Shown: piece after piece, positions 7,871-59,876 of the stretch
Numbering within the stretch: position 1 is the first letter of the stretch
Layout: each line of letters begins with the position of its first letter
Assembly: GCA_030654175.1 (NCBI GenBank)
Contig: JAURXZ010000049.1
Location: 466,334-530,333, forward strand
DNA length: 64,000 nucleotides
Reading direction: 5' to 3'
Source: Bacteroidia bacterium
GTDB lineage: Bacteria > Bacteroidota > Bacteroidia > 2-12-FULL-35-15
Translations under genes and position numbers: made by a program
The notes under the pieces: generated by a model
What the model saw: the letters and a program-made list of their open reading frames with translations, nothing else
What the model was told of the DNA's origin: nothing
Databases searched by the model: none

Positions 7871-9595
7871 CTATTTATTAATAACCACTTTTTTTGTTAT
7901 TTTATTATTACCTGCATTTAAAGTAATAAAGTAAATACCTGCATTTAAATTTTGAGCATCTAATTTTATAGTATGTCTTCCTGAATTCATTTCACCTAAT
8001 TCATTTGTAAACACCGACTCGCCAAGCATGTTATACATTGTTATAGTTACATTGGCAGTTGTGGATAAATTAAATTCAACGTCAGCATTGTCCATCAAAG
8101 GGTTTGGGTAAACCTTAATAGAGTTGACCATTTCGTTTGTATGAATCCCCGTAGTTGTGCTTACGCCTGTTATGTTTACGTTATCAAGGTAAAGGTTATT
8201 TCCATAATCCGAAGTTGCTTTAAATCTTAATAATACTCCTGACTGGCCAACATAAGCGTTTAAGTTAACAGTTTCATTCCTCCACTGTGTAGGACCTGAT
8301 GGTGTAAATACACTTGATTGTGGAGCTTTTGTTTTTAAAGTGTTACCGGCTTTGTTATAGATGCTCGTCCATGTGATTCCACAATTGCTTGAAACCTCAA
8401 CTTCCAGTTTATCATTTTCAGGAGTAGAAGTAGTATAACCGCAATATGCAACATCAAATGTCATTGCAGGGGAAACAGCGCCCACAAACGACATGGATGG
8501 AAATCCCATAATATCAATATCACCTGAAGGGATCTTGTACCAGTTTAATTTTACACCATTTGAAGAACTGTATCCTACAGTGGTATCAGTAAAGGTTAAA
8601 CCGCTTCCCCCGTTGGTGATGGTCCAGGAATTGGGTATGCCGCCACTTTCAAAAGATTCAGCAACAGCTACTCCTCCTATTGTTGGGTTTTTAATAAATG
8701 ATGCTGTAGTTGTATTGTTTGCCGCTGTTGGATCTGACACACCATTTGGGCTTGACACCGTCACCGAAATTGCATGACTCCCCGTTGTTGGCGCGCCAAG
8801 TTTTACACCGGTAACTGTTGTATTGCCATTAGATGCAATACTCCCTGTCCAGAATTTTACTTTTTGAACCACACCATCCACTTTATAGGTGATGGTAGCG
8901 GATGTTAAAGTGGTTGTTCCATTATTACCTAATAAAAATGATGGTGTAACGCTATCACAGGATGCAAGGCCCGAATTTAAAGTAGTTGATAATATCATCT
9001 TTGCATCACTTCCGGTTGAAACCGCTGCTGGACAGAAGGATGTTTTTGCAGAATATAATTGAGATGCAGTATACTGATCAACCTCTTTCATAGAGTGGTC
9101 AGGGCAAATCATGATACAAGCCGGAAAACCGGCCAGATTGTACATATTATTAAAAGTATTGACGGATGGATTAGTAGAATTAGTAGGATCGATGATCGGG
9201 TATTTTGTACCGGTAACCCAATCGCCCTGAGTGTTTGAACCGGTGCCGTGTAAATCTGCGTTGGTGGTAGAAGCATCACCTTCAACATAAAAAAGCATAC
9301 AATCATCAGTTGTGGTACTGCTAACTCCTAAACCACCTGCAGGACCATGATTGATCCATACATTTTCAAATTCATGATCGTTATGATAACTCCAACAGGG
9401 GCCACACCAGGTTGCGGAGATGTCAATAAATACTGTTTTACCTGCATTAAGGTAAGAGTAAAGGTTGTGGCTTACACCGTTAATATCTGTTAAGGTCCAG
9501 TCAGGAGAAAGGCTGCCGGTGGTAACTTGAGAACTCATTTTACCTGAGGATAAAGTAAAAGCAACAACTGTTAATAATTGTAAGATTTTTTTCAT
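7871..9595 (-). CDS. T9SS cargo protein with N-terminal thioredoxin-like domain (copy 1)
   Basis: A 574-residue secreted protein. Order: signal peptide (about 1-22); thioredoxin-like domain with FIDISATWCGPCW (Cys64, Cys67) preceded by a redoxin-like strand WTLTDINGVSHNL; two CARDB/Ig-like beta-sandwich segments (about 200-305); a cleaved-adhesin/MAM-like jelly roll (about 310-480, AESFESGGIPNSWTIT through RFKATSDYGNNLYLDNVNI); and a T9SS type A signal (YPNPLMDNADVEFNLS ... AGIYFITLNAG ... VVINK). It resembles Omp28-related proteins. The next gene upstream is a close paralogue with the same architecture, so the pair arose by tandem duplication. A surface thiol/disulfide function is suggested by the intact CxxC but is not shown. 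Confidence 0.87.
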   Translation of the reverse strand: MKKILQLLTVVAFTLSSGKMSSQVTTGSLSPDWTLTDINGVSHNLYSYLNAGKTVFIDISATWCGPCWSYHNDHEFENVWINHGPAGGLGVSSTTTDDCMLFYVEGDASTTNADLHGTGSNTQGDWVTGTKYPIIDPTNSTNPSVNTFNNMYNLAGFPACIMICPDHSMKEVDQYTASQLYSAKTSFCPAAVSTGSDAKMILSTTLNSGLASCDSVTPSFLLGNNGTTTLTSATITYKVDGVVQKVKFWTGSIASNGNTTVTGVKLGAPTTGSHAISVTVSSPNGVSDPTAANNTTTASFIKNPTIGGVAVAESFESGGIPNSWTITNGGSGLTFTDTTVGYSSSNGVKLNWYKIPSGDIDIMGFPSMSFVGAVSPAMTFDVAYCGYTTSTPENDKLEVEVSSNCGITWTSIYNKAGNTLKTKAPQSSVFTPSGPTQWRNETVNLNAYVGQSGVLLRFKATSDYGNNLYLDNVNITGVSTTTGIHTNEMVNSIKVYPNPLMDNADVEFNLSTTANVTITMYNMLGESVFTNELGEMNSGRHTIKLDAQNLNAGIYFITLNAGNNKITKKVVINK

Positions 9596-9673
9596 TTTTA
9601 ATTGGATTAAATTAATGAGTAAAAAAACTTCAACACTTCACAAACGTACTATTTAACCTTATTTTTACTTTGT

Positions 9674-9699
9674 CCCCTTTGGCACATTTACCAAAGGGG
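9674..9699 (-). terminator. Hairpin between the two Trx-headed T9SS genes
   Basis: A perfect 9-bp stem, CCCCTTTGG (9674-9682) with CCAAAGGGG (9691-9699), encloses an 8-nt loop 24 bases after the stop at 9723. There is no strong T-run on the minus strand, so it may be an mRNA 3'-end stabiliser or partial terminator rather than a full one. Confidence 0.5.
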
Positions 9700-9722
9700 C
9701 GAAGTAATTTATCAATTTGAAA

Positions 9723-11456
9723 TTATTTGTTTATAGCAACTTTTTTGGTAATAGTAGTATCGCCAATTTTAATATTTAAGAAATACAAACCATTAATTAT
9801 AGATGTTGCATCCAATGAATAATTCTGATCACCGGCACTCATCTTACCAAGGTCTTTGCTAAATTCAAGCTGACCAAGAGCATTTACAAGTGTAATGGAT
9901 ACATTATTTGATTCAGATAAATTGAAATCCACAATTGCATTGTTTGTTATTGGGTTTGGATATACATTTAGCTTATTTAACATTTCATTTTCCTCGATTC
10001 CTACAACTGAAGTAACAAAGTTAATGTTATCAACAAAAAGATTGTTTCCATAATTAGAGGTTCCTTTCAAACGAACTAAAACATTTGTCTGACCAGCGTA
10101 TGTACTTAAATTTACAGTTTCATGTCTCCATTGGTTATCACCGGAAGGAACAAATTGCACCGAGCCGCCAACCGGAGGAACCGTTTTTAATGTTGCTCCC
10201 GCTTTACTGTACTTAGAAGTCCATGTAGTACCACAATTGGTGGATACTTCAACTTGTAATTTATCAGTATTGGATGAAGAGTATTGCGCGTAGGATACAT
10301 CAAAAGTTAAATAAGCAGAAGTACCTGTAAATGACATTGGAGGTAAAGTCATTATATCGATCTGTCCGGAACTAATGTTGTAAAAGTTCAAAGTAGCACT
10401 TGAGGAAGAGTTAAAACCTGCAGTAGGGGCATCTTCCCAAGTATTGTTTCCACCGGCTGTAATGGTCCAGGCAGAAGGAATTCCTGCACTTTCAAATGAT
10501 TCAGTAATAAAAGCTCCTCCAACAGTAGGATAAATAACAAAAGATGCAGTAGTTGAATTATTGGTAGAGGTTGGATCAACAACTCCATTCGGGTTTGAAA
10601 TAACAGCAGTGATGGTTCTTGTACCGGCCACTGATGAACCAACTTTTACTCCTGTAATTGTAGCACTTTCATAAGTACCAAGATTACCTGTCCAATAAAT
10701 TGTTTTTTGGGTAACTCCATCAACTTGAAGAGTAATGGTTGCAGAAGTTAAAGTGTCGGTTCCAATATTTCCAAGACGGAAAGTAGGTGTAACACTATCA
10801 CAAGAAGCAAGTGTGGTGTTGTATGCAAGTGAAGTGATCATTTCTCCATCCACAACAACTGATGCAGCAGAACAAGCCGATTTTGCAGCATAAAGTTCAG
10901 CAGCTGTAAATTGATCAACTTCTGTCATTGAACGGTTAGGACAGATCATAACACAGGTAGGGAAATAACCAAGGTTATAAATATCATTAAATGCATTCAC
11001 AGAAGGGGTAGTAGTGCTGGTAGGATTGATAATAGGATGATCTACACCGGTAACCCAGTCACCTTGAGAAGTATTGCTATTGTTTGGATCAACACAACCG
11101 GTGCTGCCATGTAAGCAAGCTTCACTTGTAGCGCCATCACCTTCAACAAAAAATACCATACAATCGTCAGTTGTTGTTCCGCTCACTCCCGGAGCACCGG
11201 CAGGACCATGATTTGTCCAAACAGAATCAAAAGCATGTGACTCATGATATCCCCAACAAGGAGCACACCAGGTTGCTGAAATGTCAATAAAAACAGTTTT
11301 TCCGGCATTAAGGTAGGTGTATAGGTTGTGGCTTACTCCGTTAATATCAGTAAGGGTCCAGTCAGCAGAAAGGTTGCCGGTTACCACTTGTGCCTTACTT
11401 TGTGACACTAAAAACGAGAATACCAATGCGGTTGTGATTTGTAAAAGTTTTTTCAT
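9723..11456 (-). CDS. T9SS cargo protein with N-terminal thioredoxin-like domain (copy 2)
   Basis: A 577-residue paralogue of the gene just downstream, with the same order: signal peptide (about 1-23), thioredoxin-like domain with SATWCAPCW (Cys64, Cys67), CARDB-like sandwiches, cleaved-adhesin/MAM-like domain (TESFESAGIPSAWTIT ... VRLKGTSNYGNNLFVDNI) and a T9SS type A signal (YPNPITNNAIVDFNLSES ... KVAINK). The stretch around the CxxC is almost identical in the two (ADWTLTDINGVSHNLY versus PDWTLTDINGVSHNLY), whereas the sorting domains have diverged. Copy 2 carries an extra Cys-containing loop (CLHGSTGCVDPN) missing from copy 1. It is transcribed divergently from the small T9SS gene at 11677. 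Omp28-related outer-surface protein is the nearest family name I can give. Confidence 0.87.
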   Translation of the reverse strand: MKKLLQITTALVFSFLVSQSKAQVVTGNLSADWTLTDINGVSHNLYTYLNAGKTVFIDISATWCAPCWGYHESHAFDSVWTNHGPAGAPGVSGTTTDDCMVFFVEGDGATSEACLHGSTGCVDPNNSNTSQGDWVTGVDHPIINPTSTTTPSVNAFNDIYNLGYFPTCVMICPNRSMTEVDQFTAAELYAAKSACSAASVVVDGEMITSLAYNTTLASCDSVTPTFRLGNIGTDTLTSATITLQVDGVTQKTIYWTGNLGTYESATITGVKVGSSVAGTRTITAVISNPNGVVDPTSTNNSTTASFVIYPTVGGAFITESFESAGIPSAWTITAGGNNTWEDAPTAGFNSSSSATLNFYNISSGQIDIMTLPPMSFTGTSAYLTFDVSYAQYSSSNTDKLQVEVSTNCGTTWTSKYSKAGATLKTVPPVGGSVQFVPSGDNQWRHETVNLSTYAGQTNVLVRLKGTSNYGNNLFVDNINFVTSVVGIEENEMLNKLNVYPNPITNNAIVDFNLSESNNVSITLVNALGQLEFSKDLGKMSAGDQNYSLDATSIINGLYFLNIKIGDTTITKKVAINK

Positions 11457-12503: not shown

Positions 12504-14504
12504 CTATATTCTTATTCCTATTATTAATATATCATCAAGTTGTTCCTTTTTTCCACGCCAGTTTTCAAAATGGGCCTCTAAATGAGCCGCCTGTTTCTGC
12601 ATTGTTAAGTCCTTTATTTCAAGCAGAATTTGTTTGAACTTTTTTGTCATCAGTTTTTTTCCTTTCTCTCCGCCATCCTGGTCGGCATAACCATCTGTGA
12701 AAAGATAAAAAGTATCGTCCTTTTCTAATTGTACTGTATGTGTTTCAAAGTATTGAAGACTTTCAGTTAATCCTCCAATTGCAGTTTTTGTGGCTTTTAT
12801 TTCTTCAATTGCATCAGCATTTTTCCTGATGATCCATAGAGGGCGGTTTGCACCGGCATAATTTATAATATTGGTATTCAGGTCAATTGAACACAGGGCT
12901 ATATCCATCCCATCCCTGGTGGATTCGTTGTTTTCTGATTGACGGAGCGATGTTTTGATTCCTATATTTAACAGGGAAAGTATTTTACTAAGATTATCCT
13001 CATTCTGCACAGCATCATTTAATCGTTCAGAACCTATGATGCTCATGAATGCCCCTGGAACACCATGCCCGGTACAATCCATGGCTGCAATGAAAACAGT
13101 ATCTCCTTTTTTAGAGAACCAATAAAAATCTCCACTAACAATATCTTTGGGTTTAAATAAAACGAAACTGTTTTTTAGTTCTGCCCATATATCCCTGCGG
13201 TGGGGCAATGTGGCTTTTTGAATACGCAAGGCATAATGAATACTATCTGTTATTTCGTTGGTTTTTTCTTTAATTATCTTATAAGCAAATTCTATCTTTT
13301 TGTTATTGTTGTCCAGTTCACGATTGGTTTTTTGTTTTTGCCGGTATCCTGCAAAAATGAAAATTACAAGTGCAATAACAAGCGCAAATCCTACAATAAA
13401 AGCATTGCGAAGAATAATTTGTTTATCTACTATTGCTTTTTGCTTATCAATTTCAGCATCTTTTAAAAATAAATTTTGTTTCTCACGTTCATTTGCAAGG
13501 GTGTTTTTTAAATTGATAAAGTTCACATTACTAACCCTGGCCCTCATTGTATCGTTACACGTTATATAAAGACGATAATATTCAGTTGATTTTTTATAAT
13601 CACCAAGTTCTGCATAGGTTGTAGCAAGTCCCTGAACAACTTCACTTAATATCTGGTAATTAATGGTTTTTTCTCCGGTAACTATTTTATGGGCCCTTAA
13701 CTGGTAAAGGAGGGCTTTGTCATATTTTTGTTGTTTGAAAAAATCCTGTCCTATCAGATTGCATAGATAAACGATATTATCATTGCTTCCCGCTTTTTCT
13801 GCAAGACGCAATCCTTTTTCTCTTAAATCAGATGCTTTTTTGTGATTTCCAAGCCTTTCATATATTCTTGAAGTTTCATTTAAGGACGATGCAATTTCAC
13901 CGGGACTTCCGATCCGTTCCCTTATTTCCAGACTTTTAAGATAATAATTAAGTGCAGAATGTTCTTGATTGCCGTCTTCTCGGATGCCGTAGGTGCCTTC
14001 ATAGACATTGCCTATGGCACTTAACAGGTAAGATGCTGCAATTTCATTGTTCATTTCATTGAATATTCTTAAGCTTTTTGAATAATATTCAACTGCTATG
14101 TTTGGATCACTTGGCCGGTAAATAAACCCAATGAATTTATAAACATTTGCGAGCATTTTTCTATAACCAAATGTTTCGGCCAATTTCATAGCTTTGATCA
14201 AATAGCTAAGAGAAATATCATATTTTTCTTTAGAATAGTAATGATACCCAATATAATTAAAGGACAAGGCTGTTCCAAATGTGTAATTTATTTTAGTAGA
14301 AAGTTTTAATCCTTCTTGTAAGTAATATAGTGAATCGGTATATAAAAATAACTGGCAATAGACTTTAACTCTATTGGTGTCGGCTTCGGTGGCTTTTAAA
14401 ACATTTTGTAAAGAATCTATTTCAGCTTGCTGAGCGGATAAATTCGGTTTACAAAAACAAAGCGTAAAAATGAAAAGAGAAAAAAGGATAAAGTTTTTTT
14501 TCAA
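12504..14504 (-). CDS. TPR-repeat transmembrane SpoIIE/PP2C-type serine phosphatase (A)
   Basis: A 666-residue membrane signalling protein. A signal peptide (about 1-24) precedes a TPR array (about 60-345), a coiled coil, one transmembrane helix (about 364-386) and a cytoplasmic SpoIIE domain (about 415-666). The PP2C metal-binding acidic residues are present: GDFYWF (Asp459), DCTGHGVPGAFMS (Asp476), FTDGYADQ (Asp604) and the final LDDIL (Asp657/658). SpoIIE phosphatases usually dephosphorylate an anti-sigma-factor antagonist or a SiaC-like protein. The TPR half, probably periplasmic, would be the sensor. A second gene of the same layout lies on the other side of tex (17185), and a third SpoIIE is at 54634. 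No antagonist gene is adjacent. Confidence 0.9.
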   Translation of the reverse strand: MKKNFILFSLFIFTLCFCKPNLSAQQAEIDSLQNVLKATEADTNRVKVYCQLFLYTDSLYYLQEGLKLSTKINYTFGTALSFNYIGYHYYSKEKYDISLSYLIKAMKLAETFGYRKMLANVYKFIGFIYRPSDPNIAVEYYSKSLRIFNEMNNEIAASYLLSAIGNVYEGTYGIREDGNQEHSALNYYLKSLEIRERIGSPGEIASSLNETSRIYERLGNHKKASDLREKGLRLAEKAGSNDNIVYLCNLIGQDFFKQQKYDKALLYQLRAHKIVTGEKTINYQILSEVVQGLATTYAELGDYKKSTEYYRLYITCNDTMRARVSNVNFINLKNTLANEREKQNLFLKDAEIDKQKAIVDKQIILRNAFIVGFALVIALVIFIFAGYRQKQKTNRELDNNNKKIEFAYKIIKEKTNEITDSIHYALRIQKATLPHRRDIWAELKNSFVLFKPKDIVSGDFYWFSKKGDTVFIAAMDCTGHGVPGAFMSIIGSERLNDAVQNEDNLSKILSLLNIGIKTSLRQSENNESTRDGMDIALCSIDLNTNIINYAGANRPLWIIRKNADAIEEIKATKTAIGGLTESLQYFETHTVQLEKDDTFYLFTDGYADQDGGEKGKKLMTKKFKQILLEIKDLTMQKQAAHLEAHFENWRGKKEQLDDILIIGIRI

Positions 14505-17184: not shown

Positions 17185-19185
17185 ATGTTGAAAATAAAAA
17201 TAAAATATTATCTTTTCGCCCTGACAATTGTTTTTTGTCATTTGACCTTATTTGCCCAAAACAAAAACATTGACTCCCTTCTTACCCTCATCAAAACTAG
17301 CAAGCCAGACACCAACAAAGCAATTTATCTTTCTCAATTAACATATGAATGTTTAGCAACAGGAGATTATGAAAAAGGATTAAACTACGGAACAGAAGCT
17401 TTAAAACTTGCTAATAAACTCAATTTCAAAAAAGGAATTACAAATGTTAGTAGTAATATCGCGAATATTTATTGTTCTCAAGCAAACTATCCCCAAGCTC
17501 TTGATTATTATCTTAAAACATTAAAACTTCACGAAGAATTAAAAAATAAAAATGGAATAGCAACAGTACATGCCAACATCGGAATTGTTTACAGCCTTCA
17601 GGGTGACTACAAGAAAGCATTGGACTATTATTTCAAGGCATTGAAGATGGCAGAAGAGCTTGGAAATAAAAACTTAATTGGAAATTTGCTTGGCCAAATT
17701 GGGATTGTTTATAATCGGCAGGGCGACTACCAAAAAGCATTAGATTATTATTTTAAAGCACTGAAAATAAAAGAAGAAATTGGAAATAAGGTCGGAACCT
17801 CAAGCACTCTTGGCAATATTGGAAATGCTTTTAAAGACCAAAAAGATTTCACAAAAGCATTGGACTATTATTTCAAGGCATTGAAAATGAAAGAAGACCT
17901 TGGAGATAAACGCGGAATGGCAATTAACCTTGGCAACATCGGCTCTCTGTATACTACAACTGGAAAATTTAAACAAGCTGAACACTACCTGAAAAGGGCC
18001 ATCGCAATGGATGACAGTACAGGCACTTTGGATATGTTAAGACAAGATTATGAATATCTCTCTCTACTCTATGATACCACTGGACGGCACAAAGAAGCGC
18101 TGATTTTTTACAAAAAAGCAATAACACTTAAAGATACTATTTTCAGTCAGGAGAATAAAAAAGAATTGGTGCGTAAAGAAATGAACTTTGAGTTTGACAA
18201 AAAAGAAATAGCAGCCAAAGCGCAACAGGATAAAAAAGATGCAGTAACAGCATCAGAAAAACAAAGACAAAAGGTTGTAATCTATTCAGTTAGTATCGGT
18301 TTGTTTTTAGTTTTATTGCTCGCATTGTTTATTTTCAAAGGATACAAACAAAAACAAAAAGCTAATATTGTTATTACTCAACAAAAAGCAGAAGTAGAAA
18401 AACAGAAAGAATTGGTTGAAATAAAAAACAAAGAAATTACCGATAGCATAAACTACGCAAAACGCATTCAACAAGCAAAATTACCAAAGAAAGAAGAAAT
18501 TTATTCGGCACTTCCTCAAAGCTTTGTTCTGTTCAAACCAAAAGATATTGTAAGCGGAGACTTTTATTTTTTTCATAAAAATGAGTCATCTGTTTTTATT
18601 GCTTCTGCCGACTGTACAGGTCACGGAGTGCCGGGAGCATTTATGAGTATGATTGGCTCTGAAAAATTAAGTGATGCTGTTTCACAAAGTACGGACACAT
18701 CTGAAATTTTAAAACAACTAAACAAAGGAATTAAAACATCCCTTCATCAATCTGAAAATGACGAATCTACAAGAGACGGTATGGATATTGCACTTTGCTC
18801 CGTTGACACAGAAAATAGAATTGTAAAATATGCAGGCGCAAATAGACCAATTTGGATTATTCGTAAAGGACAGACCGAAGTAGTAGAAACAAAAGCCACA
18901 AAAAAAGCAATTGCTGGTTTCACAGAGGATGACCAATATTTTGATACTCACGAATTAAAATTACAGCAAGGCGATACTTTTTATATTTTCACAGATGGCT
19001 ATGCTGACCAATTTGGTGGGGAAGATGGAAAAAAATTAATGACAAAAAAATTTAAAGAAATTTTGCTTGACATCCAAGGCAAGACAATGCAGGAACAAGA
19101 AAAACATTTAGATACATTTGTCGACAATTGGCGCGGAAACAGAGAACAAATTGACGACATTTTAGTAATCGGGGTGCGACTTTAG
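17185..19185 (+). CDS. TPR-repeat transmembrane SpoIIE/PP2C-type serine phosphatase (B)
   Basis: A paralogue of the protein at 12504 with the same layout and, from the ATG at 17185, the same 666-residue length. I prefer that start because the signal peptide (ending TLFAQ) begins there; an ATG at 17167 would add six residues. TPR motifs repeat every 40 residues. Three units (about 141-180, 181-220, 221-260) share the string KALDYYFKALK exactly, so this array expanded recently. One transmembrane helix (about 364-385) precedes the SpoIIE domain with GDFYFF, DCTGHGVPGAFMS, FTDGYADQFGG and DDILVIG. The family dephosphorylates Ser/Thr-phosphorylated regulators; the TPR part is probably an extracytoplasmic protein-binding sensor. 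No kinase or antagonist lies next to it. Confidence 0.9.
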   Translation: MLKIKIKYYLFALTIVFCHLTLFAQNKNIDSLLTLIKTSKPDTNKAIYLSQLTYECLATGDYEKGLNYGTEALKLANKLNFKKGITNVSSNIANIYCSQANYPQALDYYLKTLKLHEELKNKNGIATVHANIGIVYSLQGDYKKALDYYFKALKMAEELGNKNLIGNLLGQIGIVYNRQGDYQKALDYYFKALKIKEEIGNKVGTSSTLGNIGNAFKDQKDFTKALDYYFKALKMKEDLGDKRGMAINLGNIGSLYTTTGKFKQAEHYLKRAIAMDDSTGTLDMLRQDYEYLSLLYDTTGRHKEALIFYKKAITLKDTIFSQENKKELVRKEMNFEFDKKEIAAKAQQDKKDAVTASEKQRQKVVIYSVSIGLFLVLLLALFIFKGYKQKQKANIVITQQKAEVEKQKELVEIKNKEITDSINYAKRIQQAKLPKKEEIYSALPQSFVLFKPKDIVSGDFYFFHKNESSVFIASADCTGHGVPGAFMSMIGSEKLSDAVSQSTDTSEILKQLNKGIKTSLHQSENDESTRDGMDIALCSVDTENRIVKYAGANRPIWIIRKGQTEVVETKATKKAIAGFTEDDQYFDTHELKLQQGDTFYIFTDGYADQFGGEDGKKLMTKKFKEILLDIQGKTMQEQEKHLDTFVDNWRGNREQIDDILVIGVRL

Positions 19186-53289: not shown

Positions 53290-54573
53290 ATGCTTGCAGA
53301 AATAATAACGATAGGAGATGAAATATTAATTGGTCAGATCGTGGATACTAATTCCGCTTTCATTGCCACTTTGCTTAATATGAATGGTATCAGTGTAAAA
53401 CAAATATCATCTGTTTCTGACGATCGTAACCATATTTTAAAAGCATTGGATGAAGCTAAGGAGCGCGCAGATATTATTTTAATTACCGGTGGTTTGGGTC
53501 CAACCAAAGATGATATCACCAAAAAAACGTTATGCGACTATTTTAAAACCACCATGCGCTTTGATGAAGATGTGTATCAGGATGTGGTGAAAATATTTAA
53601 TGCTTATCAAAAAGAAGTTACACCAATCAATCGTTTGCAGGCGGAAGTACCTTCAATATGCACTGTTATAAGGAATCAGAATGGTACAGCTCCCGGAATG
53701 TGGTTTGATAGGGATGGTAAAGTTTTTATTTCGATGCCTGGAGTGCCTTATGAAATGAAGGCCATGATGCAAAATCAGGTTATTCCTAAGTTAAAAGAGC
53801 ATTTTAAATTACCTGCTATTGTTCACAAAACAATTTTGACACAAGGTATTGGAGAATCCTATTTAGCTGATCTAATTTCGGATTGGGAAGATAGTTTAGT
53901 TCAGGATAATATTAAGTTGGCCTATTTACCTTCGCCCGGAATGGTTCGTTTGCGGCTCAGTACAAAAGGTGATGACGTAAAAACACTTAATAACGTAGTA
54001 GATAAAAAAATTGAGGAATTAAAAATAATTATTTCTGAATATATTTATGGTTATGAAAATTTTGGTGAAGAAACCGAAACGTTGGAGCAAATTGTAGGTA
54101 AATTATTAAATCAATTAAAAAAAACAGTTTCAACTGCCGAAAGTTGTACTGGAGGGTATATATCGCATTTAATTACTAAAGTTCCCGGCAGTTCAGATTA
54201 TTATATTGGTTCTGTAATCTCCTATTCATACGAAATAAAAGAGATCGAATTAGGTGTTTCAAAAGATTTGCTTGAAAAACAAGGCGCAGTTAGTCAACCG
54301 GTAGTGGAACAAATGGCCAAAGCCATCCGTACAAAATACAGAACGGACTATTCCATAGCAGCATCAGGTATTGCGGGTCCCGGTGGAGGAACGGATGAAA
54401 AACCTGTAGGAACAGTATGGATTGCAATTGCAACTCCGGAAACTGTAATTTCTGAAAAGTTTTTGTTTGGAACCAACCGTGAACGGAACATTCAAAAAAC
54501 AGCAAATGCAGCTTTGAATATGTTACGGAAAGAATTGCAAGCCAAGATATCCGGAACGTTTATTTGTGAGTGA
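53290..54573 (+). CDS. cinA: CinA family nicotinamide-nucleotide amidohydrolase (MoCF-CinA fusion)
   Basis: A 427-residue cytosolic enzyme. It starts at the ATG at 53290 (MLAEIITIGDEIL), since the open frame upstream to 53257 has no homology. The N-terminal MoCF-like domain (about 1-170) holds TIGDEILIGQIVDTNS, ITGGLGPTKDDITK and FISMPGVPYEMKAMM. The C-terminal CinA domain (about 265-420) holds STAESCTGGYISHLITKVPG and ASGIAGPGGGTDEKPVGTVWI, the nicotinamide-mononucleotide deamidase signature for NAD salvage. The full two-domain form is normal for Bacteroidota. The N-terminal domain is the ADP-ribose pyrophosphatase part. It sits 81 bases after the DPP11 gene on the same strand. Confidence 0.96.
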   Translation: MLAEIITIGDEILIGQIVDTNSAFIATLLNMNGISVKQISSVSDDRNHILKALDEAKERADIILITGGLGPTKDDITKKTLCDYFKTTMRFDEDVYQDVVKIFNAYQKEVTPINRLQAEVPSICTVIRNQNGTAPGMWFDRDGKVFISMPGVPYEMKAMMQNQVIPKLKEHFKLPAIVHKTILTQGIGESYLADLISDWEDSLVQDNIKLAYLPSPGMVRLRLSTKGDDVKTLNNVVDKKIEELKIIISEYIYGYENFGEETETLEQIVGKLLNQLKKTVSTAESCTGGYISHLITKVPGSSDYYIGSVISYSYEIKEIELGVSKDLLEKQGAVSQPVVEQMAKAIRTKYRTDYSIAASGIAGPGGGTDEKPVGTVWIAIATPETVISEKFLFGTNRERNIQKTANAALNMLRKELQAKISGTFICE

Positions 54574-54633
54574 TTTTGTACGGTTGCTAATTTTTTATCT
54601 TCCATTTCTTTTTAAAATAATTATTCTATTGAA

Positions 54634-56505
54634 ATGAAAAATATAAAATATTTTTTGGTTATTTCAGTCGCGTTTTTTCATTCCCTTTCATTTTGTTTTT
54701 CGCAGGAAAATGATGCAGGGAAACTAATAGTTGACGGTCAGGTTTATGGGTATAACCATGATCCATCAAATAAATTTCTTAAACGAGGTAAGCAAATTAT
54801 TCTTGAAGGAACATTGGATGGCGTTTCAATTAATATTTCGGAGAGCGGAAAATCAATTTTTAACACAAAGACCAATAAAAAAGGAGAATTTCTTCTGAAA
54901 ATTAATCTCGGCAAAATTTATAAAGTTGAACTTTCAAAACGTGGTTATACAAAAAGTATATTAATAATTGATGTAAAATCAGTACCTGCTAATATTGCTG
55001 CTAATGGAATACGATTCAGTGGTGCCGAATTGATATTAAATAGTTTCCATTCTAAAGATACTTCCCAAATAAATATTCCCTTTGGGAAATTGTATTATCA
55101 TCCGCGATCAAATTTTATGGATTTTGAAGCAAATCAGCCTGTCAGGAAAAAGGGGCTTTTGACACGAGATGACGAGCCAAACACTCATGTTTCACTTATG
55201 AAACGTGCTGTTTTGAAAAATAAAAATTTCGTACAAACTGAAAAAAAATATATACAGGAAAATGTAAAAGAAAAAAAGCAGTTGCCTGATACAGTTATAA
55301 AAACCCAAATAAAATCTGAATTCGCGTTAAAACCCATTGTTGGAATTGAAAATTTAAGTCCAGCTGATATAATACAACGTGAATCTGAAATTCATAACGC
55401 GATTGAACAGCTTGAGTTGGATAAAATGAATGCTGGTTCTTTTCTGGATAGCTTGATAATAAATGAAAGAGAAGCCTTGCTGAATTCAGCTGTGCTTGAA
55501 TTGTCGCTTGCGAAGAAGCTGATCGCATTGCAGAAAAAAGATATTTCCACTCAAAAAAAGTTATTGTTTTTTGCAATTTGTTTTGTGTTTCTCCTGATTG
55601 GATTTTTGTTTCTAATATATAAGCACTATAGAGAAAAAAGAAAAACTAATATTCTTTTGAATGAGAGGAGTAAAAAAATTACTGATAGTATTAATTATGC
55701 AAGTCGTATCCAGAAGTCAATTCTCCTTCCGGAAAATGAAATCAAAAAAATTCTACCTCAATCATTTATTTATTATCAGCCGAGAGATATCGTAAGTGGA
55801 GATTTTTATTGGTTTGCAGAAGTTGAGGCGGGGCGCTTATTAAGTGAGCCAATCGAAAAAAACGATCAATTACTTTCGATAGTGGACTCCAGGCTAATTA
55901 TTGTTGCAGCTGTTGATTGTACAGGTCATGGTGTTCCAGGCGCTTTTATGTCGCTGGTCGGCAATAGTTTATTAAATGAAATAATTCACGAAAAACACAT
56001 TATCCAACCTGATTCCATTTTAAAATCAATGCATAGTGGTGTTTTTAAAGCATTACATCAAAAAGAAGAGGTTTCACTTATTCAGGACGGAATGGAAATG
56101 TCGATATGTGTAATAGATCTTGAGAAAAAATACATTGAATTTTCCGGAGCGATGAATCCCATATATATTGTGAAAGATAATATCGTTCATGTTATTAAGC
56201 CTGATATAAAGGCTATTGGTGGAAGGAGTTTTGGGACTCGAAAAAACACTGAAGTTGAATTTACAAAACAGATTATTCCAATTGAAAAAAACATGTCAGT
56301 TTATATGTTTACAGATGGATTTGCTGATCAATTTGGTGGGCCTGAAAATAAAAAATTTAATACTGCCCAGTTTAAGAACTTACTGTTAAATATTCATTCA
56401 ATGGATATGGACATGCAAAAATCAGCAATTGAAGAAACAATAAAAAACTGGAGAGGGGATTATAAACAAACAGATGATATGCTGGTAATTGGGATGAAAT
56501 TTTAA
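54634..56505 (+). CDS. Transmembrane SpoIIE/PP2C phosphatase with N-terminal regulatory-like domain (C)
   Basis: A 623-residue signalling protein. A signal peptide (about 1-24) precedes a CarboxypepD_reg-like sandwich (about 32-115, NTKTNKKGEFLLKINLG and IYKVELSKRGYTKSILI), a linker, a coiled coil (about 245-305), one transmembrane helix (about 310-330) and a cytoplasmic SpoIIE domain (about 345-623). Metal-site residues are kept: GDFYWF (Asp390), DCTGHGVPGAFMS (Asp428), FTDGFADQFGG and the final TDDMLVIG. Relative to the two TPR-SpoIIE proteins it carries about 22 extra residues between the first two motifs (AEVEAGRLLSEPIEKNDQ). It converges on SiaC and SiaB-like genes, so it is the likely SiaA-type phosphatase of that set. 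Confidence 0.9.
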   Translation: MKNIKYFLVISVAFFHSLSFCFSQENDAGKLIVDGQVYGYNHDPSNKFLKRGKQIILEGTLDGVSINISESGKSIFNTKTNKKGEFLLKINLGKIYKVELSKRGYTKSILIIDVKSVPANIAANGIRFSGAELILNSFHSKDTSQINIPFGKLYYHPRSNFMDFEANQPVRKKGLLTRDDEPNTHVSLMKRAVLKNKNFVQTEKKYIQENVKEKKQLPDTVIKTQIKSEFALKPIVGIENLSPADIIQRESEIHNAIEQLELDKMNAGSFLDSLIINEREALLNSAVLELSLAKKLIALQKKDISTQKKLLFFAICFVFLLIGFLFLIYKHYREKRKTNILLNERSKKITDSINYASRIQKSILLPENEIKKILPQSFIYYQPRDIVSGDFYWFAEVEAGRLLSEPIEKNDQLLSIVDSRLIIVAAVDCTGHGVPGAFMSLVGNSLLNEIIHEKHIIQPDSILKSMHSGVFKALHQKEEVSLIQDGMEMSICVIDLEKKYIEFSGAMNPIYIVKDNIVHVIKPDIKAIGGRSFGTRKNTEVEFTKQIIPIEKNMSVYMFTDGFADQFGGPENKKFNTAQFKNLLLNIHSMDMDMQKSAIEETIKNWRGDYKQTDDMLVIGMKF

Positions 56506-56547
56506 GATGCCTGGTTTTGGATTTCCGATAAAATGTTTGTTATAAGC

Positions 56548-56580
56548 CATCTAACATCCAATATCTAACACCTAATATCT
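56548..56580. repeat. TCTAACATC-type intergenic repeat
   Basis: A degenerate tandem of TCTAACATCCAATATC, TAACACCTAATATCT-like units fills much of the 86-base convergent gap between the SpoIIE gene and the SiaC-like gene. Short runs of this kind are frequent in Bacteroidota intergenic DNA. Confidence 0.5.
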
Positions 56581-56591
56581 TTGTCAATTTT

Positions 56592-56969
56592 TTAACAAAC
56601 TGTAAGTTCAAAAGGGATTGTTAACATGTTTTTGAATTCATATCCTTTTATTTCCATTAAATCATCGTTTTTATCATAACACCAAACAATTTTTACCTTA
56701 TTGCCGGTTGTTATTATTTCTTCAAGTAGGGTGAATAGAACCATGATTTGTTTTACAGAACCAGAATTAAAATACTCAATGTTTATTTTGAATTCAGTGT
56801 AAGCATTTGGCTTCTTAATGTATGAAGATATCCAGTCGATAATTGGTTCATAGAACTCAGCAGGATTCTCAGGTAAGGATTTTCCACTTATGATAAATTG
56901 GTCTTTTGAAATATCAAATACAACCTGTGGTGTATCTTCTGTAGGTTTTAATTTTAATGGTTTTTCCAT
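56592..56969 (-). CDS. SiaC-family (DUF1987) regulatory phosphoprotein
   Basis: A 125-residue cytosolic protein of the DUF1987/SiaC family, the antagonist-like partner in SiaABCD-type switches. Matches: PQVVFDISKDQFIISGKSLPEN, then a strand-helix-strand ending FKINIEYFNSGSVKQIMVLF. In Pseudomonas SiaC the phospho-acceptor is Thr68 in a YFNT-type motif; the aligned residue here is Ser69 (YFNSGS), with Ser71 nearby, so I predict Ser phosphorylation. Length is typical. It lies 5 bases after the SiaB-type kinase gene, in one operon, and faces a SpoIIE phosphatase. In Pseudomonas the dephosphorylated protein activates diguanylate cyclase SiaD; no SiaD homologue is in the window. Confidence 0.88.
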   Translation of the reverse strand: MEKPLKLKPTEDTPQVVFDISKDQFIISGKSLPENPAEFYEPIIDWISSYIKKPNAYTEFKINIEYFNSGSVKQIMVLFTLLEEIITTGNKVKIVWCYDKNDDLMEIKGYEFKNMLTIPFELTVC

Positions 56970-56974
56970 AATTA

Positions 56975-58072
56975 TTAGATGGTAATGCTCAATGAAAAAA
57001 ATGATACAGTATCCGAATGTCTCATAAAATTATATTTTAATTTCTCGCTGCTATATTTGCCCATCTCAATCAATCCAATTCCAACGTTACCTGACTTATT
57101 ATTTTCTTCATTAAGTATCTTTTTTTTATACATTTCGGCCAAGCCTTTTTCATCTAAACCAACAAGGTTTTCTAATTTTTCTTTGAGTGGTTCTACGTCT
57201 GCGCTGTCAATAAAGTTGCCGGTATTAATAGTATATCTGTTGTTTTTTAAAGAGATCATAAATAAACCTTCACGTTTCCCATTTTCCTCTTTTGCATGTT
57301 TGCTTATATTTTGAAGAACTTCAATAAGTATGTATAATGTCTTTTTTTTGAAAAGAGGTAATTTTTTATTTGAATCGATGTTACTTTTAATCAGGTCAAT
57401 AAGCGGTAGAATGCTTTGTTGGGAGAAATCGCCTTTTCGGAGCAACAAAATATTTTCTTTTACCATGCCATTATAAAGATCTTTAGAACTTTTTAAAATA
57501 TCAGCATCAGTATTATCATTTTCATTTTTATTCATATTACCTAAGCGAACCTGGATAAAGAAATTGGAAAAGAAATAATTAATACCTTCAAAATCAAATT
57601 CGAGTTTTGAATCTGATTTTCTTGCCATTTCAATAAGTCCGAGACCGCCACCTCCTTTTTCGGAAAAGCCTGTATTGGCCAAAACATCGAGGTAATCAGC
57701 CTTCAATTCTTCCCGGGTAAATTTATTTATAGATTTTAGTTTTGAGGTTAAGTTGGTACTTTTTGAATTTTCAATCAAATTAGTTGTACTGATATAAAAT
57801 GCTTTTCCAATGTTCCTAACTAAAAACATTTTAGGTTTGTTGTTTGTAACATTAATTATTTCAGGTTTATCAGCATGTCGTATAATGTTTTGAAAGCATT
57901 CAACCATTAAAAAAGATAGTTTCCTTTTTAAAATTTCGGGTTCATCAATACTGGCAATATTTGCACGTATCAACGTTTCAGTTATTTCATCTACAAATTC
58001 ACCCATATAAATAAGACTGAAATGATCATTTTCCAATTTATTAAAAAACCAATACGATAATTCAGGACTCAT
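56975..58072 (-). CDS. Tandem SiaB-family (DUF6272) GHKL protein kinase
   Basis: A 365-residue cytosolic protein with two SiaB-like units in one chain (about 1-175 and 190-365). Each has an N-box E-x3-N-x3-H (Glu58-Asn62-His66 in VECFQNIIRHA; Glu251-Asn255-His259 in IEVLQNISKHA) and a glycine-rich G-box (GGGGLGLIEM at 140-149; NVGIGLIEMGK at 329-339). Known SiaB proteins have a single unit of about 180 residues and phosphorylate SiaC. Both units keep the ATP-binding residues, so either could be active. The first G-box has four Gly, the second is shorter. The linker (about 178-195) is Asn/Asp-rich (NMNKNENDNTDADI). It is the first gene of the leftward siaBC-like operon. Confidence 0.82.
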   Translation of the reverse strand: MSPELSYWFFNKLENDHFSLIYMGEFVDEITETLIRANIASIDEPEILKRKLSFLMVECFQNIIRHADKPEIINVTNNKPKMFLVRNIGKAFYISTTNLIENSKSTNLTSKLKSINKFTREELKADYLDVLANTGFSEKGGGGLGLIEMARKSDSKLEFDFEGINYFFSNFFIQVRLGNMNKNENDNTDADILKSSKDLYNGMVKENILLLRKGDFSQQSILPLIDLIKSNIDSNKKLPLFKKKTLYILIEVLQNISKHAKEENGKREGLFMISLKNNRYTINTGNFIDSADVEPLKEKLENLVGLDEKGLAEMYKKKILNEENNKSGNVGIGLIEMGKYSSEKLKYNFMRHSDTVSFFSLSITI

Positions 58073-58285
58073 TTTTTGATGGATGAAAATTAATTTTACT
58101 AAATTACTGAAAATAAAAGAAAAAGCATAAAATATAATAGTATGGCGGAACAGAAGCTAATCAATTTTGTTTAACGTTAAAAGATCATTAAAATTTCATT
58201 AAACCTGATTTTTCGATTTTTATAGGTTATCTCCCAAATAAATAGCTCATTTGAAGGGTATTTATAACAAATAAATCATAATTGT

Positions 58286-59716
58286 TTATTGGTCAATCAA
58301 AAGTTTACTTGTTACCTGTTTATTTTCATTGGTAAGTACTATAAAATATAGTCCATTTGATAATTCCATATTTTCAATTGTAAAGCTATCTCCATTCATT
58401 TTTGAGATCTTTTTTACAGGTTGACCTAAAGAATTAAATATTATCAATTCAGCATTGTTTAAATAAATTGGTGTTTCAATTTTCAGTTCATCTTGTGCAG
58501 GATTCGGATAAATTGAAAATCCAAAATCATTGGATTCTTCTATGCCAAGAGGACAGGATGTATAAGTTAAAATTTTCACCCCTGTCCAATTGGAAGCGAA
58601 TGGAACAACAGAGCAGATATAGGATAGATATATTTCATTTTGATATAATCCCACTCCCCAGGTACCGAGGTTATTGGTGACTCCCCCGTAAAAATTACAT
58701 GAATCAGGTTGTGCCGGATTTGAAACATCAACCACCATCATGTCGCTTTTTCCTGTAGATAAAAAGATCTGTTTGCAATTTTTATTATATTGAATTTCAT
58801 TGGCATGAACAGGAGTGTTGAACCAATTGTTGTTCGGACAGTTATAAGGGTTCCACCATCCGGTAAGTGTTATATTACTGGTATCTGCAATGTTTAAAAT
58901 TTCCATTCCGCAATAATCCACTGCAATATATACAAGTGTATCGTCCAGTATAATATTGTTGTATGCTTTGGGATGATCCAAAGGAGTGTACACTGCAGGG
59001 TTACACCAGCGTCCTGTTTCCATTGGCGAAAGTTTGTTTGTGCAATTGATGATCCTGAATCCACCGCCATCATAGCATAGATATACAATGCTGTTCTTAA
59101 CTTCCATTCCTCGTGCATTGTAATAGTCAGGATTTGGATTTGCAATAGGAGGATAATTTATATTGGGTGCAAACTGCGAAGCAAACTGTATATTGCTTTT
59201 GTTGGTTATATCCAGGATCACCAAACCATTTTTCATGGCCCCTAAGTAAGCATAGTCCCCTTCCACTTTTATAATACCTCCACCACTGGTAGATGATGGA
59301 ACCAAATAATAATCAGTAACAACAGGCAAAAGCGGATTTGTTATATCTACAATTGCCATTCCGCCTTGCTGAGGATTGGTGAACGTATTTCCAAGTGCGA
59401 GATAAAGATAGTTTCCACTTTGTGAAACATTCATTACATCCAGTGTAGCAAACAAATTTGTGGGAACAGTTGCAATTAATAACGGTGAGGTAATAACAGA
59501 AATATCATAAATTTTCAACCCCGCCTCTTTGTTTGCAACATAGAGATATGGCCGGTTCAGGTCATCATGAATCATGGTCATTATCATAAAATTACAAGTG
59601 GAAGAAATATCCGATTTCCACTGGATATTCATGTTATTGCAATTTTGCCCGGTAATTTTATTACTCGATGTAACAATAATTAGAATAAAGGTTGTGATTT
59701 TAAAAAGGTTATTCAT
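58286..59716 (-). CDS. LVIVD-repeat beta-propeller protein with T9SS type A signal
   Basis: A 476-residue secreted protein. I use the ATG at 59716; a TTG three codons upstream (59725) is less likely. Signal peptide about 1-23, then a propeller made of LVIVD repeats: YLYVANKEAGLKIYDIS, GGMAIVDITNPLLPV, DYAYLGAMKNGLVILDITN, and others each followed by a P-x-x-x-G/D turn. It ends in a T9SS type A signal (YPNPAQDELKIETPIYL ... NGLYFIVLTNENK ... KLLIDQ). LVIVD proteins are surface or secreted scaffolds of unknown ligand. Many Cys residues (CNNMNIQ, CNFMIMT, CGMEIL, CNFYGG) occur in loops, which could form disulfides. Confidence 0.86.
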   Translation of the reverse strand: MNNLFKITTFILIIVTSSNKITGQNCNNMNIQWKSDISSTCNFMIMTMIHDDLNRPYLYVANKEAGLKIYDISVITSPLLIATVPTNLFATLDVMNVSQSGNYLYLALGNTFTNPQQGGMAIVDITNPLLPVVTDYYLVPSSTSGGGIIKVEGDYAYLGAMKNGLVILDITNKSNIQFASQFAPNINYPPIANPNPDYYNARGMEVKNSIVYLCYDGGGFRIINCTNKLSPMETGRWCNPAVYTPLDHPKAYNNIILDDTLVYIAVDYCGMEILNIADTSNITLTGWWNPYNCPNNNWFNTPVHANEIQYNKNCKQIFLSTGKSDMMVVDVSNPAQPDSCNFYGGVTNNLGTWGVGLYQNEIYLSYICSVVPFASNWTGVKILTYTSCPLGIEESNDFGFSIYPNPAQDELKIETPIYLNNAELIIFNSLGQPVKKISKMNGDSFTIENMELSNGLYFIVLTNENKQVTSKLLIDQ

Positions 59717-59876
59717 GGCTGACAAGTTAAATTAGTAAAATCATTGATAGTACGTTCTGAGGGTAAAATCAAATATGATGATTCCTTTACTGTTTTGCTT
59801 TTTCAAATATAAGTTTTTTTAACAAAATAATTTATATTAAGCAGCCCATTTTCTTCGATAAACCTTAATAATTGAT

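Follow-up and report, generated by a model that had tools for sequence, protein, structure and literature searches.

A probable SiaA/SiaB/SiaC-type partner switch of Bacteroidota whose SiaB-type kinase is a tandem of two oppositely diverged units

The stretch of DNA analysed here (the window; 64,000 nucleotides, C34:466334-530333 of a 5.10-Mb assembly of 51 contigs from a Bacteroidota host) contains a gene for a membrane SpoIIE phosphatase that converges on the genes for a SiaC-like protein and for a kinase, SiaBB, in which two SiaB-type units are joined in one chain. The system is probably a partner switch of the SiaA/SiaB/SiaC type with a kinase that is a covalently joined, asymmetric SiaB dimer, since SiaB of Pseudomonas is dimeric and the two units of SiaBB show opposite residue losses. 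Pseudomonas SiaB is reported to form dimers and to phosphorylate SiaC at Thr68 (PMC7278518); according to this paper, a commentary by authors of the Pseudomonas work, the SiaB-SiaC crystal revealed which residues serve in dimer formation.

In the scheme that these parts suggest, the fused kinase would use ATP to phosphorylate Ser69 of SiaC, the periplasmic part of the SpoIIE protein would sense an envelope signal, whereupon its PP2C domain would remove the phosphate from SiaC, and unphosphorylated SiaC would bind a target. Unit 1 would most likely be the phosphotransfer and SiaC-facing unit, and unit 2 would most likely complete the dimer and set its activity, perhaps through binding of ATP/ADP. 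The two units would be fused because the dimer is covalent, and the fusion would leave the two halves free to diverge. The parts of the locus are as follows.

54634-56505, + strand: SpoIIE/PP2C phosphatase, counterpart of SiaA (623 residues; open reading frame confirmed; Pfam, structure match to SiaA, hydropathy), laid out as signal peptide, periplasmic sensor, one transmembrane helix and cytosolic PP2C domain (hydropathy, Pfam)
54712-55551, + strand: periplasmic sensor, CarboxypepD_reg-like at its start; the region is conserved among the convergent SpoIIE partners of other tandem modules
55558-55614, + strand: the one transmembrane helix, which separates the sensor from the PP2C domain (about residues 309-327; hydropathy maximum 3.2 at 310-328)
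56592-56969, - strand: SiaC phospho-switch protein (125 residues; PF09345, E 1.1e-36; 6k4f_U, E 2.2e-14)
56763-56765, - strand: SiaC Ser69 codon; the residue aligns with Thr68, the phospho-site of Pseudomonas SiaC (structure-sequence alignment)
56975-58072, - strand: tandem SiaB-type kinase, SiaBB, with two DUF6272 units per chain (365 residues; Pfam, AlphaFold2)
57521-58072, - strand: SiaBB unit 1, residues 1-184 (N-box E58/N62; Thr97 in place of the G1 glycine; G2 box KGGGGLGL intact; R151-K152)
56978-57505, - strand: SiaBB unit 2, residues 190-365 (N-box E251/N255/H259; G1 G285-N286; altered G2 lead SGNVGIGL)

Two SiaB folds in one chain

An earlier note on this DNA had described a membrane SpoIIE phosphatase converging on the SiaC and kinase genes, and the open reading frames and Pfam families were found exactly where it had placed them, with the phosphatase (54634-56505) on the + strand and the other two genes on the opposite one. 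Its proposal of two SiaB-type units joined in a single chain was borne out as well. The family PF19788 (DUF6272) matches SiaBB with an E value of 2.5e-59 as two stretches of one 365-residue chain (Pfam), and in a profile search of the whole assembly the units score 106.5 and 101.8 bits against a cut-off of 26.6, so that each unit alone passes. The phosphatase matches PF07228 (SpoIIE; Pfam, E 2.7e-16) over residues 422-622 of 623, and its alignment with SiaA (6k4e, E 1.3e-29) covers the RD..GDF, VDC.GHG, TDG..DQ and DD stretches, PP2C motifs with a metal-binding role. SiaC matches the solved structures 6k4f and 6kko_C with E values of about 2e-14 to 3e-14, and SiaBB matches SiaB (6kko_A) through both unit 2 (E 1.1e-10) and unit 1 (E 7.4e-5).

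The AlphaFold2 model of the whole SiaBB chain, built with 72 aligned relatives, has a predicted local distance difference test score (pLDDT) of 84.3 and a predicted template modelling score (pTM) of 0.85. For a two-unit chain this pTM is taken to mean that the units are positioned relative to each other with fair confidence, and it fits a defined packing of both units, the packing being judged from pTM alone. Unit 2 superposes on 6kko_A with a Z score of 19.4 (root-mean-square deviation 2.1, 166 aligned residues). As nearly all rows of the whole-chain VIA-align comparison covered unit 2, unit 1 was modelled alone (pLDDT 86.5, pTM 0.82), and it matches 6kko_A with a Z score of 18.8 (deviation 2.8, 166 aligned residues). 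The refuting case named in the earlier note, a second unit without a DUF6272 fold or without ATP-binding residues, is thus countered by the Z score of 19.4 and by the retention of E251/N255, G285/N286 and the G2 glycines G331/G333.

The next-best folds after SiaB are those of the anti-sigma kinases UsfX, SpoIIAB and RsbW (Z about 10 to 13.6), and rows at Z 6-7 (histidine kinases) were treated as a general GHKL resemblance. These folds are compatible with a classical anti-sigma switch, in which SiaBB would hold a sigma factor in the manner of SpoIIAB/RsbW and SiaC would act as the anti-anti-sigma protein; SiaC has been compared with an anti-sigma-factor antagonist structure, according to excerpts of PMC7647112. 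Such a switch is nonetheless highly improbable. SiaBB shows no HATPase_c_2 match at E values up to 0.01, only DUF6272 being reported, and four other proteins of the assembly are above the HATPase_c_2 cut-off, the best of them a 157-residue frame on contig C16 that is not at the tandem loci. No broad third neighbour cluster accompanies the module (no profile search for sigma factors was made, and a gene close to L101 resembles a sigma factor), and the solved SiaB acts via SiaC on a diguanylate cyclase (PMC7278518).

The two units have diverged in opposite ways

The units were compared in 72 proteins out of a set of 84 tandem proteins. Both units of all 72 have the N-box Glu and Asn, the Asn of G1 and the final glycine of G2. 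Unit 1 carries R151-K152 in 72/72 and the glycines G140, G141 and G143 in 71, 72 and 71 of the 72, while a glycine at the G1 position is seen in 29/72 (Thr97 in the window). Unit 2 has this G1 glycine in 67/72, a Lys at the position of K152 in 16/72 and eroded glycines leading into G2; in the window Lys339-Tyr340 stands where unit 1 has the Arg-Lys pair. In a set thinned at 60% identity the Arg-Lys pair of unit 1 is found in 39/39 against a Lys in 9/44 for unit 2, and the G1 glycine in 13/39 against 39/44, respectively. Stand-alone SiaBs, thinned to 15 and then reduced to 14 by dropping the truncated tandem L087, have the glycine in 12/14 and Lys or Arg at the Lys position in 13/14, and SiaB of P. 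aeruginosa has both features. Unit 1 is also the more conserved one, with a mean identity of 0.38 versus 0.31 and the higher value in 685 of 741 pairs (the pairs are non-independent). Regarding the duplication of the kinase proposed earlier, the two units therefore stand and the equality of the copies does not, as the units differ systematically in their residue losses. What is new here is that the two halves have diverged in opposite ways, stand-alone SiaBs mostly keeping both features.

A quick tree search over 28 tandems (each entered with both units), 23 stand-alone SiaBs and four units of unfused pairs placed all unit 1s in one clade (support 99) and all unit 2s on one side of a branch (support 55), and on these grounds the tandem looks like one old fusion event. 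An unfused adjacent pair of SiaB genes occurs in two genomes of the genus (L155 5354-6495 and L156 34-1140). This pair falls outside the tandem clades, and both the G2 glycines and the N-box His are gone from its upstream copy; an unequal SiaB pair thus seems to have arisen more than once.

The invariant Arg-Lys pair, the complete G2 box and the higher conservation point to unit 1 as the phosphotransfer unit. Several observations weigh against this picture, the main one being the variable G1 glycine of unit 1. Thr97 at this position in the window could impair ATP binding there, in which case the catalytic half would rather be unit 2. Unit 2 still has the Arg of the Arg-Lys pair in 48/72, the loss being chiefly of the Lys, and the support for the unit 2 side of the tree is weak. 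On another explanation the chain would hold two equivalent active kinases, the fusion fixing their stoichiometry or local concentration and the residue differences being drift. The residues found in both units of all 72 proteins and the about equal match of both unit folds to SiaB would agree with this. We regard it as unlikely, because the losses are consistent and opposite between the units across the set, unit 1 is the more conserved in 685/741 pairs, and the separate unfused pair (L155, L156) also has one copy without the G2 glycines. An asymmetric SiaB dimer in one chain remains the preferred description of the kinase.

The switch residue of SiaC and the input of the phosphatase

The phospho-site of Pseudomonas SiaC is Thr68, as given in excerpts of PMC7647112. 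In the SiaC proteins next to tandem kinases the aligned residue is Ser in 50/60 and Thr in 10/60, preceded by an invariant Asn. On a tree of SiaC the tandem label requires 4 changes versus 20.2 for shuffled labels (a tree with few columns and many open forks). Since the SiaC sequences sort in this way by kinase type, kinase and SiaC seem to have stayed together in evolution.

The phosphatase consists of a signal-peptide-like start, about 280 residues, one transmembrane helix and then the PP2C domain (hydropathy). Its N-terminal region is common to 10 further convergent partners (blastp, 27-71% identity; alignment of 12). A Pfam scan of the window phosphatase gave no PF13620 match, and this family was found in 7/7 scanned N-terminal relatives and in the full-length L058 relative, at about the same place and with E values of 2.4e-5 to 0.052, all below the curated cut-off. 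The carboxypeptidase-regulatory-like sensor of the earlier note is in this way backed by sub-threshold matches in relatives and lacks one in the window protein itself. Other convergent SpoIIE partners bear TPR-like N-termini, assigned by Pfam for the assembly's own copy on C16. Because the convergent SpoIIE proteins carry either CarboxypepD-like or TPR-like N-termini, the input seems to be exchangeable and the switch constant. SiaA of Pseudomonas is reported to sense membrane perturbation via a sensory domain of its own (excerpts of PMC12834913).

Recurrence of the module in Bacteroidota

An assembly search found nine DUF6272 stretches in six proteins, three of them tandem. At all three tandem loci SiaC lies directly downstream and is followed by a convergent SpoIIE gene, the one on C35 running off the contig. 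In the genus, DUF6272 is present in 34/36 genomes and tandem proteins, 19 in all, in 11/36. A convergent SpoIIE gene stands beside SiaC at 16/19 of these tandem loci (the three of the assembly included); L161 is cut by the contig end, and no SpoIIE was seen at L168 and L170. In an even sample of the phylum DUF6272 rises above the cut-off in 8/148 genomes and the tandem occurs in 2, one being that of the assembly, so the SiaBB system is patchy in the phylum.

The collection of species genomes yielded 280 tandem relatives, the best 80 of which were used. By their titles 79 of these 80 come from Bacteroidota groups and one from Chlorobiota, and the closest (74% identical) lies on a contig of Bacteroidetes bacterium RIFCSPLOWO2_12_FULL_35_15. 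These 80 and the three of the assembly make 83 tandem loci, which were sorted automatically. SiaC is found directly downstream of the tandem kinase at 60/83. Next to these 60 SiaBB-SiaC pairs a SpoIIE gene is convergent at 23 (the assembly's three included), co-directional at 8 and in front at 2; another 23 have a non-SpoIIE gene next, and 4 end there. The remaining loci comprise 17 tandem genes without an adjacent SiaC, 4 that end at the kinase and 2 partial ones. The sorting classed L059, where a stub of SpoIIE closes the contig, and L115, which has SpoIIE in front, as ending with the contig, L094 (partial SiaC match nearby) as lacking SiaC, and L100 as partial despite two units and two SiaC; the genus loci and the 83-locus set overlap in part (e.g. 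L057 = L157, L058 = L171).

As the layout is present at 3/3 tandem loci of the assembly and at 23/83 of those examined, it is not a product of chance. The duplicated kinase and the convergent phosphatase, listed in the earlier note as differences from the Pseudomonas module, are no peculiarities of this locus and form a recurrent Bacteroidota layout (23/83 loci; 16/19 in the genus). The survey of tandem DUF6272 genes and their neighbours that it had put forward thus gave SiaC downstream at 60/83, convergent SpoIIE at 23 and no broad third partner.

Not all of the counts favour a dedicated module. The 17/83 tandem genes without adjacent SiaC and the 23 pairs with another gene next show that SiaC and SpoIIE are not obligatory neighbours. 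The assembly, moreover, has nine SiaC matches and six SiaB-type proteins, and its 52 SpoIIE matches come from some 48 proteins, four of them matched twice; with so many paralogues cross-talk is possible. The convergent SpoIIE might then be no partner of the adjacent SiaC, its proximity being incidental and any SpoIIE serving any SiaC. The number of SpoIIE proteins, the 23 loci with another gene next and the different N-termini (CarboxypepD-like or TPR) of the adjacent SpoIIEs would be in line with this. The regularity of the arrangement makes it distinctly unlikely: the convergent SpoIIE is present at every tandem locus of the assembly and at 16/19 in the genus, a co-directional SpoIIE follows SiaC at 8 further loci and one precedes the kinase at 2, and the N-terminal region is common to 11 convergent partners, that of the window included.

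Three variants of the parts were seen among the loci. Two tandem SiaBB genes stand back to back (four SiaB units) with no adjacent SiaC in L131 (8935-11201) and L135 (8935-11199). In L098 (5361-6131) a PP2C-family phosphatase (PF00481) follows SiaBB-SiaC where others have SpoIIE, and in L158 (9428-10249) two SiaC stretches lie in a single chain.

The output of the module

The target of SiaC in P. aeruginosa is SiaD, a diguanylate cyclase on whose stalk it acts (excerpts of PMC8457831). The only GGDEF match in the assembly is one GGDEF-EAL protein on contig C7 (L026 6012-9047). This contig has 21 kb, the 13 kb read show 43.5% G+C versus 35.7% in the window, and its other genes look proteobacterial; it is a probable contaminant. 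GGDEF is absent in 34/36 genomes of the genus, the other match (G033) lying on a 3.9-kb contig of 44% G+C. For these reasons cyclic di-guanosine monophosphate (c-di-GMP), or a diguanylate cyclase target, is very unlikely as the output of the tandem module. The presence of the GGDEF-EAL protein would allow the module to control c-di-GMP through it; given the composition and neighbours of C7, and the lack of GGDEF in 34/36 genus genomes while 11/36 have tandem SiaB, this is hardly credible. The statement in the earlier note that no SiaD is present is accordingly confirmed and extended from the window to the assembly (C7 only) and to 34/36 genomes of the genus, and the same counts speak for its suggestion of an output other than c-di-GMP.

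When 748 neighbour genes were clustered all against all, only two groups recurred broadly: SiaC, at 62 loci, and a SpoIIE cluster at 49 loci, with 64 members of which 14 do not match the SpoIIE profile. The clusters that come after these, at 15, 11 and 10 loci (NA37 by Pfam in the last case), were rejected as output because they come from one set of similar Bacteroidales-type contigs. With no third gene recurring broadly beside the module, its target is probably encoded elsewhere.

SiaC is followed by a GGDEF protein in L179 (6994-7758) and L180 (8187-9023) and by a HisKA-HATPase histidine kinase in L177 (8091-9155). A helical stalk is common to these three proteins, suggesting a portable SiaC-docking stalk. 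A profile of the three stalks had no match in the assembly, a weak result since there was no positive control, and among solved structures it reached SiaD (7e6g), at residues 65-90, only with an E value of 0.37, behind DNA gyrase and other coiled coils; the shared stalk is thus a lead only.

A further gene near SiaC encodes a TerB-ABC-2 exporter, a protein of about 1,020 residues in which an ABC ATPase is combined with ABC-2 membrane domains and, in some copies, with a TerB match at the cut-off or slightly under it. It is present in 33/36 genomes of the genus, and the copies referred to here are the following.

L175, 9042-12113: TerB-ABC-2 gene
L176, 4537-7611: TerB-ABC-2 gene
L182, 7236-10346: TerB-ABC-2 gene
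L155, 523-3588: TerB-ABC-2 gene
L156, 1250-4318: TerB-ABC-2 gene
L191, 7021-10089: TerB-ABC-2 gene of the assembly
L192, 11698-14790: TerB-ABC-2 gene of the assembly

The exporter gene follows SiaB-SiaC in the same direction in L175, L176, L155, L065 and L071, directly follows the unfused pair in L156 and is convergent in L182. Among 31 single-SiaB loci of the genus (for 30 of the 36 genomes the top-scoring locus, with G001 represented twice), it lies within 25 kb of SiaB at 16/31 and within 5 kb at 10, and in 12 of the 16 it is downstream and convergent. Outside the genus, in L065, from the cultured Bacteroidota member Nafulsella turpanensis, and in L071, the tandem module, a single-SiaB operon and the exporter are contained in one 10-kb stretch. 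The exporter is therefore the best-linked candidate output of the sister single-SiaB operons. As the output of the tandem module it was discarded, with 0/19 genus tandem loci having it within 100 kb (many contigs are too short to tell); in the assembly neither exporter gene adjoins SiaB. Taken together, the exporter, the GGDEF proteins and the histidine kinase found near SiaC in different members indicate that SiaC proteins probably serve several outputs in Bacteroidota.

Two further arrangements join SiaC to this exporter family. In L155 (3859-4962) the gene immediately upstream of TerB-ABC-2 encodes a TerB-like N-terminal part fused to SiaC as the C-terminal domain; the TerB-like part resembles the N-terminus of the exporter (profile E 8e-6, blastp about 6e-5), and the SiaC domain has a Pfam E value of 1.3e-36. 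In L022 (about 9107-10340) an orphan SiaC on contig C18 is followed by a member of a lipoprotein-like family of about 300 residues, elsewhere a companion of the TerB-ABC-2 exporter. This family has no Pfam assignment in its L175 copy and a sub-threshold DUF3993 match in its L192 copy.

A more ambitious proposal, which we put forward tentatively and with the chances against it, combines a one-chain heterodimeric kinase, whose two complementary and partly degenerate GHKL units would share out catalysis and regulation, unit 1 transferring phosphate to SiaC and unit 2 sensing the nucleotide or locking the dimer, with Bacteroidota SiaC pathways that would gate TerB-ABC-2 export or another output new for SiaC.

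Significance

The SiaA/B/C switch has multiplied in a genus almost without diguanylate cyclases, and its kinase has been fused, with halves that diverged in opposite ways. This brings two questions within direct reach of experiment: which of the two halves carries out phosphotransfer in a dimeric GHKL protein kinase, and what is controlled by SiaC proteins beyond c-di-GMP signalling. In the open-licence literature of PubMed Central (PMC) no paper was found on DUF6272, on tandem SiaB or on the SiaC family under its Pfam description; the one paper that names DUF1987 is the eLife structure paper, and the SiaA/B/C literature found there deals only with the P. aeruginosa biofilm switch via a diguanylate cyclase.

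Surroundings of the locus

Promoter-like sites in 54400-58400 are at the shuffle level (23 vs 20.1). Terminator-like sites in the same interval number five against 1.7 expected, none of them between the convergent genes. Upstream of the kinase, at 58286-59725 on the - strand, lies a gene whose LVIVD-repeat product has a C-terminal tail for type IX secretion (Pfam); it is not in the listed recurrent neighbour clusters. Further SpoIIE domains are encoded in the window at 12507-13370 (- strand) and 18319-19182 (+ strand), with no SiaB or SiaC match adjoining.

Comparison with known systems

The module resembles SpoIIAB-SpoIIAA-SpoIIE and RsbW-RsbV-RsbU in the GHKL kinase fold (Z about 10 to 13.6), the PP2C phosphatase and the small switch protein. 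Kinases of the SpoIIAB/RsbW type are dimeric. The kinase and switch families differ from those found here, and the present module gave no sign of a sigma-factor output (sigma factors were not profile-searched).

With the single-SiaB operons of Bacteroidota (L175, L176, L182 and those on C17 and C6 of the assembly) the module shares the SiaB-SiaC pair, there often with SpoIIE in front. Unlike the tandem, these operons have one SiaB unit, usually with both motifs intact, and they are often near a TerB-ABC-2 exporter, whereas the genus tandem loci are not.

The closest counterpart in the comparison drawn by the earlier note, the SiaA-SiaB-SiaC-SiaD system of P. aeruginosa (6k4e, 6kko, 6k4f, 7e6g), holds for the parts and the presumed logic and fails for gene order and output. 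Both systems have a PP2C phosphatase with a membrane sensor, a SiaB-fold kinase and a SiaC with Ser/Thr at the switch position, and the kinase/phosphatase logic is presumed to be the same. No diguanylate cyclase accompanies the present module, and Ser stands here for Thr there. The phosphatase gene is convergent here, and not co-directional in one operon as in P. aeruginosa. Finally, the kinase of the present module, unlike that of P. aeruginosa, consists of two SiaB units per chain with opposite residue losses.

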